Source: Nitrospirae bacterium CG2_30_53_67
GTDB taxonomy: Bacteria; CG2-30-53-67
Direction of reading: 5' to 3'
Length of the DNA stretch: 12,239 nucleotides
Assembly (NCBI GenBank): GCA_001873285.1
Contig: MNYV01000137.1
Coordinates: 1-12,239 of the forward strand
In this document: piece by piece, positions 1,789 to 12,239 of the stretch
Layout: every line of letters starts with the position of its first letter
Position numbering within the stretch: position 1 is the stretch's first letter
Program-made: the position numbers and the translations under genes
Notes under the pieces: model-generated
The model's database searches: none
The model's input: the letters and a program-made list of their open reading frames with translations, nothing else
Told to the model about the DNA's origin: nothing

Positions 1789-3051
1789 ATGGAAACCATC
1801 CTTTTGAACCGCATACACCTCGAAAACTCCCGTTCCATCTCCGTCTATATGGCGCATGAAGGCTATGAGGCGCTGAAAAAGGCCCTGTCCATGCCTCCCG
1901 CAGAGGTCGTCAATGAGGTCAAGCGCGCAAATCTCCGGGGACGGGGCGGAGCGGGGTTTCCCGCGGCCATGAAATGGGGATTCGCGGCTGCGGACCCGAA
2001 GAAACCCAAATACCTTCTGTGCAATGCCGACGAAGGGGAGCCCGGTACCTGTAAGGACCGGCAGATTATGGAAGGGGACCCGCATGAACTGATCGAGGGG
2101 ATGATCATCGCCGGGTATGCCTTCGGCGCCGAATACGGCTATATCTACCTCCGGGCCGAGTATCCCCGGCTGGGGGGGATCCTCGATCAGGCGATCTCCG
2201 AGGCAGAGGAAAAAGGTTTCCTGGGAAAAGACATCTGTCATTCAGGGTTTAATTTTACGATCCGGGTCCACCGCGGGGCCGGGGCCTACATCTGCGGGGA
2301 GGAGACCGCCCTGATCGAGTCCCTGGAAGGGAAGCGCGGCCAGTCCCGCATCAAACCCCCCTTCCCGGTCAATGTGGGCGCCTTCGGGCTCCCCACGGTA
2401 ATCAACAATGTGGAAACCCTGGCCAATGTTCCCCACATCATACTCAAAGGGGGGGACTGGTTCGCCGGTATCGGCCCGGCCAAATGTCCGGGAACAAGAA
2501 TCATCTCTCTTTCCGGTCATGTGAACCGTCCGGGGTATTACGAACTCCCCATGGGCGTAAGCTTCCGTGAGGTGATTTATGAACACGGCGGCGGCATCCG
2601 GGACGGAAAGGAGCTCAAGGCCTTCATCCCCGGGGGGGCGTCCTCGCCCTGCCTGACCCCCAATCATCTCAACGTGGGCATGGATTACGACTCCGTATCC
2701 GCGGCCGGGAGCATGCTCGGCTCTTCCGCGCTCATGGTCATGGACCAGGATACCTGCATGGTCAAAGTGGCCGGACGTCTGATGAGGTTTTTTGTCCATG
2801 AATCCTGCGGGAGATGCACCCCGTGCCGTGAAGGAACCGACTGGCTCCTCAGTATCCTGGACCGGATCGAGGCCGGAGGGGGCAAGGAAGGAGACATCGA
2901 ACTCCTGCGCGACATCTGCGACAACATCGCAGGAAAGACCTTCTGCCCCCTGGGGGAGGGAGCGCTCGGACCTGTGCGGGGCACGCTGAAGTATTTTGAG
3001 GAAGAGTACCGGGAGCATATCCGGATCAAGGGATGCACTTTGAAGATTTAA
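1789..3051 (+). CDS. nuoF: NADH-quinone oxidoreductase subunit F (51 kDa, NADH/FMN, N3)
   Basis: NuoF is the entry point for electrons: it oxidises NADH at FMN and passes electrons through [4Fe-4S] cluster N3. The 420-residue protein shows the glycine-rich nucleotide loop GRGGAGFPAAMKW (51-63), the flavin/NADH motif CNADEGEPGTCKDR (78-91), and GAGAYICGEETALIESLEG starting near 163. The N3 ligands are C340, C343 and C346 (SCGRCTPCREGT) plus C386 (FCPLGE). There is no N-terminal ferredoxin-like or C-terminal extension of the kind found in hydrogenase-linked HndC/HoxF homologues, which fits a true complex I subunit. ATG 1789 follows the nuoE TAA with no gap. The 3' end runs into a heptamer array that starts on the base after the stop codon. 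Confidence 0.97.
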   Translation: METILLNRIHLENSRSISVYMAHEGYEALKKALSMPPAEVVNEVKRANLRGRGGAGFPAAMKWGFAAADPKKPKYLLCNADEGEPGTCKDRQIMEGDPHELIEGMIIAGYAFGAEYGYIYLRAEYPRLGGILDQAISEAEEKGFLGKDICHSGFNFTIRVHRGAGAYICGEETALIESLEGKRGQSRIKPPFPVNVGAFGLPTVINNVETLANVPHIILKGGDWFAGIGPAKCPGTRIISLSGHVNRPGYYELPMGVSFREVIYEHGGGIRDGKELKAFIPGGASSPCLTPNHLNVGMDYDSVSAAGSMLGSSALMVMDQDTCMVKVAGRLMRFFVHESCGRCTPCREGTDWLLSILDRIEAGGGKEGDIELLRDICDNIAGKTFCPLGEGALGPVRGTLKYFEEEYREHIRIKGCTLKI

Positions 3052-3107
3052 GATTTGAAATTTGAAATTGGAAATTGGAAATTGGAAATTGGAAATTTGA
3101 GATTGGG
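3052..3107. repeat. Heptamer tandem array (nuoF/nuoG gap)
   Basis: Seven consecutive 7-base units start on the base after the nuoF stop: GATTTGA, AATTTGA, four copies of AATTGGA, then AATTTGA, followed by a degenerate eighth (GATTGGG). The unit is the reverse complement of the one at 1249-1276, so the two junctions carry one family in opposite orientations. The four identical central units suggest recent expansion by slippage or copying. The array occupies most of the 67-base gap and leaves nuoG with only a weak, distant Shine-Dalgarno candidate (GGG at 3105-3107). Confidence 0.9.
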
Positions 3108-3118
3108 AATCCATTCTT

Positions 3119-7159: not shown

Positions 7160-7321
7160 GTGGTCCTGTTCGTAAATATGGTGACGTACCGAGAGGGTCG
7201 TAGGGCGGTCTCATCCCCGCGCGCGACTGAGGCGTACCCCTCTGGTACGCCGCAAGGAGCGGAACGCCGATGAGACCGCCATACGGCACTCGAATGCCAC
7301 CGTATTTACGAATAGGGCCAC
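7160..7321. mobile_element. MITE-like 162-base foldback element (nuoI/nuoJ gap)
   Basis: The two 24-base ends (7160-7183 and 7298-7321) are inverted copies with 21 of 24 positions matching by hand count, starting GTGG and ending CCAC. Further in, a perfect 12-base pair GGCGGTCTCATC (7204-7215) / GATGAGACCGCC (7269-7280) continues the stem. The tip is a perfect 8-base hairpin GGCGTACC (7231-7238) / GGTACGCC (7244-7251) with a five-base loop. No open frame of useful size lies inside. TAA precedes it (7157-7159, the nuoI stop) and TAA follows it (7322-7324), a possible 3-base target duplication. This is the expected form of a non-autonomous element mobilised in trans, but the transposase family is unknown to me. 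Confidence 0.75.
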
Positions 7322-7334
7322 TAAGGGGGATGGG

Positions 7335-7844: not shown

Positions 7845-7884
7845 AGCTTATTTTATAAACAGCGACAGAAGTCGTAATCAGTTT

Positions 7885-7976
7885 GTCATTGTCCGGTCCC
7901 CCGATCGGGGTCGGAGGACAGGCCCGACCGGACAATCCAGTATTTTCTGGATTCCCCGATCAAGTCGGGGAATGAC
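7885..7976. repeat. Paired inverted hairpin repeat, GTCATT/AATCCAG type (nuoJ/nuoK gap)
   Basis: Two hairpin units sit in mirror orientation. Unit 1 (7885-7940) reads GTCATT, a stem GTCCGGTC (7891-7898) / GACCGGAC (7926-7933), then AATCCAG; it also contains the palindrome CCCCGATCGGGG. After six bases, unit 2 (7947-7976) reads CTGGATT, then CCCCGA / TCGGGG around a TCAAG loop, then AATGAC. Its full perfect stem is ATTCCCCGA (7951-7959) / TCGGGGAAT (7965-7973). The caps are shared while the stems differ. Repeats with GTCATTCCC...GGGAATCCAG form are, from memory, common between genes in Desulfobacterota and related genomes. No T-run follows, so a terminator role is not supported. Confidence 0.8.
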
Positions 7977-8014
7977 ATTGTTGATTTATGACGTTCTGTA
8001 TAGAAGGTATGAAC

Positions 8015-8367: not shown

Positions 8368-8415
8368 AAGGGGCCAAGGGGCCAAGGGGCCCAGGGTTCC
8401 AGGGGTCGAGTGAAA
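8368..8415 (+). repeat. Octamer array, copy A (nuoK/nuoL gap)
   Basis: Five in-phase 8-base units are followed by a distinct closing octamer: AAGGGGCC three times, CAGGGTTC, CAGGGGTC, then GAGTGAAA. The same layout (five RAGGGGYC-like units plus GAGTGAAA) recurs after nuoM at 12139-12186, and an inverted version lies at 8478-8517. Bases 8321-8367 and 8416-8477 show no gene. Confidence 0.85.
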
Positions 8416-8477
8416 GGAAGAAAACAAAAGGCTCTGGGGACCCAAGGGTTTGTAAGGTGGTTATTGGTATTTAGGTA

Positions 8478-8517
8478 TTTCACTTGAACCCTTGACCCCT
8501 AGACCCCTCGAATCCTT
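8478..8517 (-). repeat. Octamer array, inverted copy A' (nuoK/nuoL gap)
   Basis: Read on the minus strand this is AAGGATTC, GAGGGGTC, TAGGGGTC, AAGGGTTC, then the closing octamer AAGTGAAA: four units plus cap, in the same phase as copy A. Aligned from the cap it matches copy A at about 30 of 40 positions by hand count, so the transcript could fold A against A' with G-U pairs adding strength. Confidence 0.8.
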
Positions 8518-8530
8518 TTTAGAGGTTTTT

Positions 8531-8538
8531 GGAGGAGG
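8531..8538 (+). promoter_or_regulatory. Ribosome binding site deciding the nuoL TTG start
   Basis: GGAGGAGG lies five bases before TTG 8544. The longer reading from TTG 8529 would put this site inside the coding region, so 8544 is preferred. Confidence 0.75.
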
Positions 8539-8543
8539 AACGC

Positions 8544-10490
8544 TTGGAACACGCGCCGACCTGGTTGCATATATTGATTCCATTACTTCCACTGCTTGCG
8601 TTTGTGGTGAACGGCCTCTTCGGCAAGTGGCTGAAGACCCGCGCAGCCGCCGTCTCCATCGGCGCCGTGGCGGGGTCCTGCGTCCTCTCCCTCATCACCC
8701 TGGGCCGGGTCCTTTCCGGTGAGACCTTCTACGGCACGGTCTATGAATGGATCTCCTCGGGCGATTTCAGGGCGAGCATCGGGTTCAACATCGACCCCCT
8801 CACCGCAGCGATGATCGCCATGGTCACCTTGGTGGCCTCATTGATCCACATCTATTCCATCGGCTACATGCACGGGGACAAAGGGTTTGCGCGGTTCTTC
8901 GCCTACCTCTCCCTCTTCACCTTCTCCATGCTCATCCTGGTTATGGCCGACAATTTTCTGCTCCTCTATGTGGGCTGGGAGGCGGTCGGGCTCTGTTCCT
9001 ATCTGCTCATCGGGTTCTGGTATGAAAAGAAGTCGGCCTCGGACGCAGGAAAAAAGGCCTTTGTGGTGAATCGGATCGGCGACTTCGGGTTCGGCCTCGG
9101 GATCATGCTGATCTTTTACACCTTCAGGACCCTGGACTATCACGAGGTCTTCGGCGCGGTCCAGACCATCGTCGGTCAGACCCTCTCCATCCCCCTCTAT
9201 GTCACGACCATCCAGGCGGACCTTACGACCGTGATCTGCCTGCTCCTCTTTGTCGGGGCCGTTGGAAAGTCCGCGCAGTTCCCGCTCCACGTCTGGCTCC
9301 CGGACGCCATGGAAGGCCCTACGCCGGTCTCGGCCCTGATCCATGCCGCGACCATGGTCACGGCCGGGGTTTACATGGTGGCGCGGGCCAACCCGCTCTT
9401 TTCCGAATCTTCAACGGCGCTGATGGTGGTGGGATGCGTGGGCGGGTTCACCGCCTTTTTCGCTGCGACCATCGGCCTCGCCCAGAATGATATCAAACGG
9501 GTCCTGGCCTACTCCACGGTCAGCCAGCTCGGCTACATGTTCCTGGCCCTGGGGATCGGCGCCTATACGGCCGCGATCTTTCATCTTCTGACCCACGCCT
9601 TTTTCAAGGCCCTCCTCTTCCTCGGTTCCGGTTCGGTGATCCACGCCATGTCCGGGGAGCAGGATATGCGCAAGATGGGCGGGCTCAGGGACAAAATTCC
9701 CTGGACCTATGGGACCTTCGTCGTAGCCGCGCTGGCCATATCCGGGATCCCGCCGCTTGCCGGTTTCTTCAGCAAGGATGAGATCCTCTGGCAGGCCTAC
9801 TCCCACGGCACGAACTACGGTGCGGTTCTTTACCTGCTCGGCGCCTCCGCCGCTCTGATGACCGCCTTTTACATGTTCCGCCTGGTCTTTATGACCTTCC
9901 ACGGGAAGTCCCGTGTGGAGACCAAGGCCGCGCGTCACCTCCATGAATCCCCCTGGAGCATGGTGGGGCCTCTGGTGGCGCTCGCCGTCTTTTCCGCCAT
10001 CGCAGGGTTTGCCGGTCTGCCCGAGGCGTGGGGCGGGGGCAACTGGATCCACCACTTCCTGGGCCCTGTATTCGGGCACGGCCATGAAGCCGCCGGGGGC
10101 GCCACCCATCTTGAACGCATGATGGCAGGGGTCTCTGTGGTCATCGCCCTGGCCGGGATCGGGCTGGCCGCGTTTATGTATCTCGTGAGCCCCTGGCTTC
10201 CCGGGAAACTGGCATCAGGCCTGGGCGGCCTCTACAGGGCCGTTCTGAACAAGTGGTACATGGATGAGATCTATGATTTTCTTTTTGTGAATCCCGGCAA
10301 ACGCTTTGCGACCTTTCTGTGGGAGTTCGTGGACGCCTGGGTGATCGACGGAATCGTGAACGGGACGGCCGGGACGTCCAACTTTTTCGGGGAGCGGATC
10401 CGCAAGTTCCATACCGGCCACGTGGAAAACTATGCCTTGTTCATGGTGACCGGCGTGGTGATCATCCTGGGATTCTATCTCTTTGCATAA
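8544..10490 (+). CDS. nuoL: NADH-quinone oxidoreductase subunit L (ND5-like antiporter subunit)
   Basis: NuoL is the distal antiporter-like proton pump of complex I and carries the long lateral helix along the membrane arm. From TTG 8544 the protein is 648 residues, slightly longer than the 613 of E. coli, and is hydrophobic throughout. The core motifs are LLLYVGWEAVGLCSYLLIGF, with E146 corresponding to E. coli E144, and VGAVGKSAQFPLHVWLPDAM, with K242 matching the conserved TM7 Lys. These are followed by EGPTPVSALIHAATMVTAGV. LTHAFFKALLFLGSGSVIHA carries the later conserved Lys. A hydrophilic His/Gly-rich stretch (GPVFGHGHEAAGG) precedes the C-terminal helices. The closing part (NKWYMDEIYDFLFVNPGKR) is typical of NuoL and distinguishes it from Mrp antiporters. 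Confidence 0.96.
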   Translation: MEHAPTWLHILIPLLPLLAFVVNGLFGKWLKTRAAAVSIGAVAGSCVLSLITLGRVLSGETFYGTVYEWISSGDFRASIGFNIDPLTAAMIAMVTLVASLIHIYSIGYMHGDKGFARFFAYLSLFTFSMLILVMADNFLLLYVGWEAVGLCSYLLIGFWYEKKSASDAGKKAFVVNRIGDFGFGLGIMLIFYTFRTLDYHEVFGAVQTIVGQTLSIPLYVTTIQADLTTVICLLLFVGAVGKSAQFPLHVWLPDAMEGPTPVSALIHAATMVTAGVYMVARANPLFSESSTALMVVGCVGGFTAFFAATIGLAQNDIKRVLAYSTVSQLGYMFLALGIGAYTAAIFHLLTHAFFKALLFLGSGSVIHAMSGEQDMRKMGGLRDKIPWTYGTFVVAALAISGIPPLAGFFSKDEILWQAYSHGTNYGAVLYLLGASAALMTAFYMFRLVFMTFHGKSRVETKAARHLHESPWSMVGPLVALAVFSAIAGFAGLPEAWGGGNWIHHFLGPVFGHGHEAAGGATHLERMMAGVSVVIALAGIGLAAFMYLVSPWLPGKLASGLGGLYRAVLNKWYMDEIYDFLFVNPGKRFATFLWEFVDAWVIDGIVNGTAGTSNFFGERIRKFHTGHVENYALFMVTGVVIILGFYLFA

Positions 10491-10503
10491 TGAAAGAAAA
10501 GAT

Positions 10504-10607
10504 TCAGCCACGAATTGACACGAATTGGCACCGATGAAGACAAAGACAATAAAACACCAGGATACATATTTATGATATTCGTAATATTCGTGCCCATTCG
10601 TGGCTGA
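10504..10607. repeat. Decamer array in inverted arrangement (nuoL/nuoM gap)
   Basis: A perfect 12-base inverted pair bounds the element: TCAGCCACGAAT (10504-10515) and ATTCGTGGCTGA (10596-10607). Inside the left arm are 10-base units CACGAATTGA, CACGAATTGG and the diverged CACCGATGAA (10509-10538). Inside the right arm, read on the minus strand, are CACGAATGGG, CACGAATATT and ACGAATATCA (10602 back to 10573). The centre is AT-rich without further order. It ends 18 bases before the nuoM start and spares its ribosome binding site. Confidence 0.8.
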
Positions 10608-10625
10608 TTATTGTATGGAGCATCA

Positions 10626-12134
10626 ATGACGGAACATATCCTCAGCCTGATCACGTTCTTTCCTCTCTTCGGCGTGCTGCTGATTCTCCTCACGCCAAAG
10701 CGCAGCGCAGAGGCGATCCGCCGGGAGGCCTTCCTGACCTCCGTGATCACCTTTGGACTTTCACTCTATCCGGTCATCCGCTTCGACCGGGGCACCTACC
10801 TCATGCAGTTTACGGAATCAGTCCCATGGATTCCTACATGGGGGATCCATTACTCGGTGGGTGTGGACGGGATCAGCCTCCTCTTGGTTTTTCTGACCAC
10901 CCTGCTCAGCATGGTCGCCGTGCTTTCCTCATGGACCGCCGTCACTCTGCGCGTCAAGGGGTATATGATCGCCCTCCTGGTCCTCGAAACGGCCATGCTG
11001 GGGGTCTTTGTCTCCACCGACCTCTTTCTTTTCTATGTCTTCTGGGAGCTGGAGTTGATCCCCATGTTCCTGCTGATCGGCATCTGGGGCGGGGGCCGCA
11101 AGCTCTATGCGGCGATCAAGTTCTTCCTTTACACCCTGTCCGGGTCGGTCCTCATGCTGATTGCGATCCTTACCCTCTATATCCACAGTGGGGACCCGCA
11201 GAGTTTTGATATTCAGGCCATCACGCAGGCGGCATCCGGCTTCAGCCCGAAGATGCAGTTCTGGGTCTTCTGGGCGCTGTTCCTCGGGTTTGCCTTCAAG
11301 GTTCCCATGTTCCCCTTCCACACCTGGCTTCCGGACGCCCACGTGGAGGCGCCCACGGCCGGTTCCGTGATCCTGGCCGGTGTCCTCCTGAAGATGGGGA
11401 CCTACGGGTTTCTCCGGTTCGCCATTCCCATGTGCCCGGAGATGGCGCTCAGACCGGAGACTGTGAAGATCATGATGATCCTCGCCTCCACGGCCATCAT
11501 CTACGGGGCGCTGGTCGCCATGATGCAGAGGGACATGAAAAAGCTGGTCGCCTATTCTTCGGTCTCGCACATGGGATATGTGATGCTCGGGATTTTTGCC
11601 TATAATCTTCAGGGCGTATCCGGCGGGATCCTGCAGATGTTCAACCACGGGATCGTTACCGGCGCCCTGTTCCTGATCGTGGGTCTGATCTATGAGCGGC
11701 GGCACACCCGCATGATCGCCGATTTCGGGGGGATCGCCCGGGTCATGCCCATTTATGCGGCACTGTTTTCGATCTTCACCCTGGCCTCCATCGGGCTCCC
11801 CGGGACCAACGGATTCATCGGCGAGTTTCTGATCCTGGTCGGGGCCTTTACGTCCCATTACCGGATCGCGGCCGTGGTGGGGGCCTTCGGCATCATCCTG
11901 GGGGCGGCGTATATGCTCTGGCTCTATCAGCGGGTGATCTTCAACCCCATGGTCATCAAGGAGAACGAGAAGCTCACCGACCTCAGCCTCCGGGAGGTCG
12001 TGACGCTTCTGCCTCTTCTGGTCCTGGTTTTCTGGATCGGTTTTTATCCGGACCCGTTTTTAAATATGCTCAATGCCTCGGTGCAGCACCTGATCGAGCC
12101 GTTGCAGGCCTTTCAGGCAGCGACGGGGCCGTAA
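10626..12134 (+). CDS. nuoM: NADH-quinone oxidoreductase subunit M (ND4-like antiporter subunit)
   Basis: NuoM is the second antiporter-like proton pump, sitting between NuoL and NuoN. From ATG 10626 the protein is 502 residues, close to the 509 of E. coli. Key features are FYVFWELELIPMFLLIG, with E141 matching the essential E144 of E. coli; GFAFKVPMFPFHTWLPDAHV, with K225 matching TM7 Lys234; and EAPTAGSVILAGVLLKMGTY, with K256 matching Lys265. MKKLVAYSSVSHMGYVMLG and the GLPGTNGFIGEFLILVG motif are also standard. The frame opens at TTG 10611, but TATGGAG at 10614-10620 lies five bases before ATG 10626, which is therefore preferred. After the stop an octamer array begins at once; nuoN is expected beyond the window. 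Confidence 0.97.
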   Translation: MTEHILSLITFFPLFGVLLILLTPKRSAEAIRREAFLTSVITFGLSLYPVIRFDRGTYLMQFTESVPWIPTWGIHYSVGVDGISLLLVFLTTLLSMVAVLSSWTAVTLRVKGYMIALLVLETAMLGVFVSTDLFLFYVFWELELIPMFLLIGIWGGGRKLYAAIKFFLYTLSGSVLMLIAILTLYIHSGDPQSFDIQAITQAASGFSPKMQFWVFWALFLGFAFKVPMFPFHTWLPDAHVEAPTAGSVILAGVLLKMGTYGFLRFAIPMCPEMALRPETVKIMMILASTAIIYGALVAMMQRDMKKLVAYSSVSHMGYVMLGIFAYNLQGVSGGILQMFNHGIVTGALFLIVGLIYERRHTRMIADFGGIARVMPIYAALFSIFTLASIGLPGTNGFIGEFLILVGAFTSHYRIAAVVGAFGIILGAAYMLWLYQRVIFNPMVIKENEKLTDLSLREVVTLLPLLVLVFWIGFYPDPFLNMLNASVQHLIEPLQAFQAATGP

Positions 12135-12138
12135 TAAG

Positions 12139-12239
12139 AAGGGGCCGAGGGGTCAAGGGGTCAAGGGGTCGAGGGTCCGAGTGAAAAGCGGAGAGAAATA
12201 GAGTATCCAAGGGGCCAAGGATTAAAGGGGCCGAGGGAA
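12139..12239 (+). repeat. Octamer array, copy B, running past the window end
   Basis: Beginning four bases after the nuoM stop: AAGGGGCC, GAGGGGTC, AAGGGGTC, AAGGGGTC, GAGGGTCC, then the cap GAGTGAAA (12179-12186), exactly the layout of copy A at 8368-8415. After a 22-base purine-rich stretch a second run starts at 12209: AAGGGGCC, AAGGATTA, AAGGGGCC, GAGGGAA, and is cut by the window edge. By analogy with copy A, an inverted partner may follow before nuoN. No gene is seen in this region. Confidence 0.85.

Follow-up and report, generated by a model that had tools for sequence, protein, structure and literature searches.

The nuo operon and its octamer arrays

The analysed stretch of 12,239 nucleotides (hereafter the window) is a single contig (C137) of the 2.36-Mb draft genome of Nitrospirae bacterium CG2_30_53_67 and carries the nuo (complex I) operon from nuoD to nuoM, the gene names deriving from its reading frames together with matches found in relatives. 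The original prediction described three tandem arrays in this window, of five, five and four RAGGGGYC-like octamers, each followed in phase by a closing octamer, the cap; direct sequence reading confirmed all three. Copy A consists of AAGGGGCC AAGGGGCC AAGGGGCC CAGGGTTC CAGGGGTC (8368-8407) followed by GAGTGAAA at 8408-8415. The inverted copy, read on the minus strand from 8517 down to 8486, consists of AAGGATTC GAGGGGTC TAGGGGTC AAGGGTTC followed by AAGTGAAA at 8485-8478, and copy B of AAGGGGCC GAGGGGTC AAGGGGTC AAGGGGTC GAGGGTCC (12139-12178) followed by GAGTGAAA at 12179-12186. The stretches 8368-8415 and 8478-8517 form a single inverted element in the nuoK-nuoL spacer, and copy B belongs to a second element 3' of nuoM, whose tandem layout of arm, linker and arm recurs in other genomic copies. 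The features of both elements are as follows.

8368..8407, plus strand: left arm of the nuoK-nuoL element, five octamers (four in the ortholog of the sister species, G001)
8408..8415, plus strand: cap GAGTGAAA, inner edge of the left arm (in-phase NAGTG after 86/109 arrays)
8416..8477, no strand: interior of the nuoK-nuoL element, no recognised S23 remnant
8478..8485, minus strand: cap AAGTGAAA, inner edge of the right arm (sequence reading)
8486..8517, minus strand: right arm, four octamers (sequence reading)
8518..8543, minus strand: putative decayed outer end TTTAGAGGTTTTTGGAGGAGGAACG (better copies TTTACCCACTAAATGGGAGAAGAACC), from by-eye comparison with other copies
12139..12178, plus strand: left arm of the second element, 3' of nuoM, five octamers (no array here in G003 and G004)
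12179..12186, plus strand: cap GAGTGAAA of the second element (sequence reading)
12209..12239, plus strand: further forward array of the second element, AAGGGGCC AAGGATTA AAGGGGCC GAGGGAA, cut by the contig end (sequence reading)

Both window copies lack an S23 remnant, in agreement with the absence of any PF05635 match on the contig, and retain an outer end only in decayed form. A decayed outer end TTTTTGGAGGAGGAACG (8529-8547) lies directly 5' of the nuoL start and may supply the nuoL ribosome-binding site. Comparison of orthologous sites revealed the nuoK-nuoL element in this genome and in the sister species and its absence from genomes G003 and G004, which also have no array downstream of nuoM. 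The nuoD-nuoE spacer of the sister species holds an octamer element of ~200 bp with 12 units, whereas the window has a 39-bp spacer without such an element.

Further repeats were observed in the nuo spacers, which look like repeated targets of repeat elements. The nuoL-nuoM spacer contains an insertion of ~120 bp at 10484-10610, composed of 10-mer units (CACGAATTGA CACGAATTGG ... inverted CCATTCGTGGCTGA) and absent from the sister species, where the spacer is uninterrupted (CTCTTTGCATAATGGAGCATCAATGAC); it represents another inverted-repeat mobile element. Heptamer arrays are located in the nuoD-nuoE spacer (AATTTCA, 1246-1271) and in the nuoF-nuoG spacer (TTGGAAA, 3039-3110), the latter exceeding its counterpart in the sister species by ~27 bp, or roughly four units. 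Long palindromic insertions occupy the nuoI-nuoJ spacer (7160-7334; 178 bp vs 14 bp in the sister species) and the nuoJ-nuoK spacer (7845-7987; 146 bp vs 77 bp) and belong to yet other repeat families. The more distant genomes G006 and G007 (loci L312 and L313) have heptamer arrays of their own (GCTGAA/TCAGCTT type) in nuoK-nuoL, inverted in G006, which also carries heptamer arrays in the nuoL-nuoM spacer.

A dispersed element with capped inverted arms

For the genome-wide analysis, 40 further genome stretches were read, of which 20 had been picked for array bodies, 20 regardless of arrays, and none by the cap; arrays of two or more units were counted (n = 109 in this genome). Three tandem units (≤3 mismatches) gave 441 matches in the genome vs 0 for the reversed pattern. 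The octamer arrays are thus real, though some units deviate from the proposed RAGGGGYC and the consensus NAGG[GA]NNC fits better. NAGTG was found in the next in-phase octamer after 86/109 arrays in this genome, 33/50 in the sister species and 18/33 in sister genera, vs 1/109, 1/50 and 0/33 in the octamer directly before the array. Most arrays are therefore capped in phase, as had been predicted, whereas the exact closing octamer RAGTGAAA follows only 27 of the 109; since the final bases of the cap differ with the downstream sequence (AAGTGAAG, AAGTGTTT, CAGTGTTT, AAGTGGTT), the conserved core is AGTG.

The unit number is constrained, with a mode of four (59/109 arrays) and two to three units in a further 43, and expanded arrays of 9-14 units exist in some copies; the five octamers of the window arrays are not the norm, as is also seen from the four in the nuoK-nuoL copy of the sister species. 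Inverted pairs, raised as a possible rule in the original prediction, are indeed the rule: an inward-facing inverted partner lies within 400 bp of 97/109 arrays, and right and left arms including their caps are complementary. Almost all arrays are intergenic, with only 3/82 lying mostly within a long reading frame, though such frames account for 83% of the sequence read. Genes adjoining an array are co-directional in 43/65 cases.

The array clusters share outer edges that face inward, GRTTCATCTCCAAAAGAGTGGGTGAAAACAT on one side and GGTTCTTCTCCCATTTAGTGGGTAAA on the other. These terminal inverted repeats, just inside of which the arrays sit, occurred 105 and 83 times, respectively, and the reversed patterns gave 0 matches. 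Target duplications were analysed for 40 end pairs (about 38 distinct elements), with small shifts allowed and permuted flanks as control: 12/40 pairs matched in 8/8 and 11/40 in 7/8 positions, compared to 0.3% and 4.9% with permuted flanks. The duplications, of a constant length of 8 bp and seen in family copies other than those of the window, are AT-rich, and the flanks of the tested elements are 82% AT. Terminal inverted repeats and target duplications together identify DNA-transposed, MITE-like elements, about 150-400 bp in length. At least about 80 copies are spread over this genome (~2.4 Mb), and the window arrays are old ones among them.

Several copies hold broken pieces of an S23/IVP gene (PF05635, four-helix bundle) between the arms; the S23 fragment starts at the left cap (AAGTGAAGTGCTC...) and has its stop codon within the right array. 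The cap thus adjoins an internal region that in other copies holds the S23 gene. A conserved cap had been taken to imply a defined boundary; such a boundary exists in that the cap is the inner edge of a mobile-element arm, but its conservation within this genome reflects in part the common descent of the copies. The suggested role of the cap itself in priming, cleavage or protein binding is conjectural. Contigs of this genome break within the S23 gene, as would be expected if several near-identical full copies existed, and no complete element with an intact S23 gene was observed. No known RNA family in Rfam matched the array element. No parent transposon was found for the element ends, with the IS1595 family being the one tested: the genome itself has no PF12762 match, and the IS1595 copy of the sister species lacks similar ends. 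Taken together, the evidence gives good support for each capped array being an arm of a small IVS/S23-type mobile element, which here moves between genes as a MITE.

S23 genes of other phyla

The first S23 loci seen in other genomes suggested flanking inverted arrays of short units. A fresh set of 80 S23 loci, selected by protein only and independent of arrays, was drawn from Planctomycetota, Chloroflexi, Omnitrophota, Bacteroidota, Cyanobacteria, Acidobacteria, Verrucomicrobia, Firmicutes, candidate phyla and others, and placements of the same geometry elsewhere in the same loci served as control for flank similarity. The median inverted flank similarity was 19.5 at S23 genes vs 9 in the control (p = 8e-48), with 57/78 loci above the 99th percentile of the control and about a quarter not exceeding it. 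A period of 7 was best in 137/156 S23 flanks vs 13/79 controls, the units sometimes being 8-mers, and the run length had its mode at five (59/146 scoring flanks). By strict unit calling, cores of four and five units made up 73/105 arrays. On either side of the gene, the AG-rich strand mostly pointed inward (68/75 and 67/76 arrays). An identical unit was found inverted across the S23 gene in 47/72 loci, compared to 4/72 in direct orientation. The next unit on the gene-proximal side retained an in-phase AG in 33/103 cases, whereas the distal neighbour was not unit-like, and in several loci the S23 start codon is at or near the gene-side end of the array. No 23S motif was found near any of the 80 loci. 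Unit sequence tracked S23 relatedness (matrix correlation 0.26, reached in 0/500 permutations; 0.18 for pairs <80% identity), a correlation to which shared ancestry and base composition may contribute. S23 genes are thus generally bounded by inverted arrays of 7-mers, sometimes 8-mers, in many phyla.

In the unrelated genome G016, gene-less arrays of the 7-mer of its S23 element occur at scattered chromosomal places; most have four units, and some end in TAGTGAA. For such counts the reversed-pattern control is uninformative because the repeats read nearly alike backwards. In genome G061, inspection by eye revealed no clear target duplications next to the S23 copies, among them four with 96-99% identity; lineages may thus differ in how their elements move. 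In the same genome (L342, 1264-1801), gene-less derivatives of the element, ~200 bp each, follow an S23 gene in tandem and have the junction AATACAAGAC/GTTAAGCGC in common. Genome G015 (L347-L352) has short S23-like genes in divergent pairs, in many copies per genome.

Possible recognition of the arms and relation to known elements

The fold of S23/IVP proteins has been solved, and to our knowledge their function is not known. We propose that the complete element type comprises a central S23 gene (IVP, PF05635) between two inverted arms, each of which consists of about four near-identical units of 7 or 8 nucleotides with the AG-rich strand inward; the cap (NAGTG in the present family) is a partly decayed unit that closes the arm next to the gene. 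Outer terminal inverted repeats are a further part of the arms in this genus, where the element has moved by DNA transposition into AT-rich intergenic sites with an 8-bp target duplication. The majority of copies, those of the nuo operon among them, lack the gene and persist as MITE-like remnants.

The arms may be recognised unit by unit, most likely by an S23 protein pentamer set against about five units, and four units plus the decayed fifth may be what the pentamer reads. The Xanthomonas S23 protein is a toroidal homopentamer (PMC4990558), and the S23 structures 2GSC and 2RLD contain five chains each. Number, polarity and period of the units are kept, as recognition unit by unit would have it, whereas their order is barely matched between the arms compared to permuted order (p = 0.03), which suggests that pairing is not strongly selected. 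Recognition of the arms by the S23 protein is possible rather than probable. At the RNA level, pairing between the two arms may give a hairpin open to cleavage by RNase III, as happens to the intervening sequence (IVS) in the 23S rRNA of Coxiella. Processing of the present copies by this enzyme is possible at best, to a similar or slightly lower degree. The two activities are mutually compatible, and an arm bound by S23 or cut by RNase III is no more than plausible.

The Coxiella IVS has GACAGAT heptamers, a degenerate GACAGAA before the S23 start and a 28-bp stem, which corresponds to the length of four heptamers; RNase III excises it and makes its 5' cut at the first heptamer repeat (PMC4990558). 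An S23 gene between complementary ends and heptamers of which the last is degenerate before the S23 start are features shared with the S23-bearing elements described here. Complementary inverted ends are present in this family as in IVSs, and an S23 frame between the ends is represented by fragments in several family copies and by none in the window copies. In contrast to rRNA IVSs, which reside in 23S rRNA helices, the window copies lie in the nuo operon and the tested S23 loci outside rRNA, the elements are dispersed, and in this genus they have terminal repeats and target duplications.

That the arms are kept solely for a transcript hairpin, which RNase III would cut to separate the operon cistrons, is a minority reading that we nevertheless take seriously. 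The inward-facing complementarity of arms and caps, the cutting of the Coxiella IVS stems by RNase III (PMC4990558) and the mostly co-directional adjoining genes would all fit. However, in-register pairing is only marginally above that with permuted unit order, a weak result on which strict base pairing of the arms was rejected; the predicted RNA fold of the nuoK-nuoL window copy is unremarkable (z = -1.48); and period, polarity and unit number are stricter than pairing requires.

Somewhat less probable still is an ordinary MITE, in which a lost DNA transposon would have left the arrays as its sub-terminal transposase-binding repeats, with S23 a chance passenger. Like MITEs, the family is short, has many copies and lies between genes. 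Such an origin also agrees with the 8-bp target duplications and the terminal inverted repeats found in this genus, the latter decayed in the window copy, and with the position of the arrays just inside the ends. The recurrence of similarly built arms at S23 genes in many phyla argues against it, as does the finding that sister genera keep capped arrays although the terminal repeat was not found there within 3 mismatches; the lack of a parent transposon, for which the IS1595 family was tested and does not fit, points in the same direction. A difference from MITEs is that the inner arms are capped tandem arrays tied to S23 in other phyla.

A role of the arrays as ribosome-binding or regulatory sites is improbable: AAGGGG resembles a Shine-Dalgarno sequence and several S23 genes start near the gene-side array end, but the downstream arm mirrors the upstream one, cap included, without a start codon that it could serve, and units in many genomes are not Shine-Dalgarno-like. 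Octamers grown by replication slippage, or G-quadruplex repeats, without further meaning are largely refuted, since phase, one-sided cap, inverted partners and limited unit number are kept genome-wide, as the original prediction had argued from the cap, units prefer positions, and equivalents without G runs occur in other genomes; the arrays of 9-14 units (12 in nuoD-nuoE of G001) and the one-unit difference of the nuoK-nuoL copy between species are what slippage can claim.

The preferred reading, arms of an IVS/S23-type element, may also bear on other dispersed repeats. TAACTGA-type heptamer arrays in Beggiatoaceae, cyanobacteria and Bacteroidetes, with seemingly horizontal spread and no known mechanism, resemble the arms in being intergenic tandem 7-mers with few units per set; the paper describing them mentions neither S23 nor intervening sequences (PMC4679880). 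REP/BIME and REPIN sequences with RAYT (PMC2817692, PMC3116915) are likewise dispersed, inverted, intergenic and non-autonomous, but a REP is one short palindrome with a GTAG-type tag, associated with a tyrosine transposase, whereas the present elements have tandem-unit arms tied to S23, and target duplications.

S23 genes, IVS elements, MITEs and heptamer arrays are each already known. In open-access papers, no report was found that links non-rRNA S23 genes to inverted capped arrays, and the Coxiella heptamers were the one precedent found for a link between S23 and heptamers; the general rule of an S23 gene between inverted capped arms therefore looks new. It is conceivable, if speculative, that S23/IVP is the repeat-recognising part of widespread, overlooked non-rRNA mobile elements, each pentamer subunit reading one 7/8-nucleotide unit in capped arms that have about five, and that many dispersed heptamer and octamer arrays are gene-less remnants of these. 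The rule joins the question of S23 function to that of the origin of heptamer arrays, both of which are open to simple binding and RNA-processing assays. S23-flanking arms would account for a class of puzzling short repeats found dispersed in the genomes of bacteria, and the findings suggest that rRNA intervening sequences form one part of a broader class, whose members also insert into operons, nuo among them.
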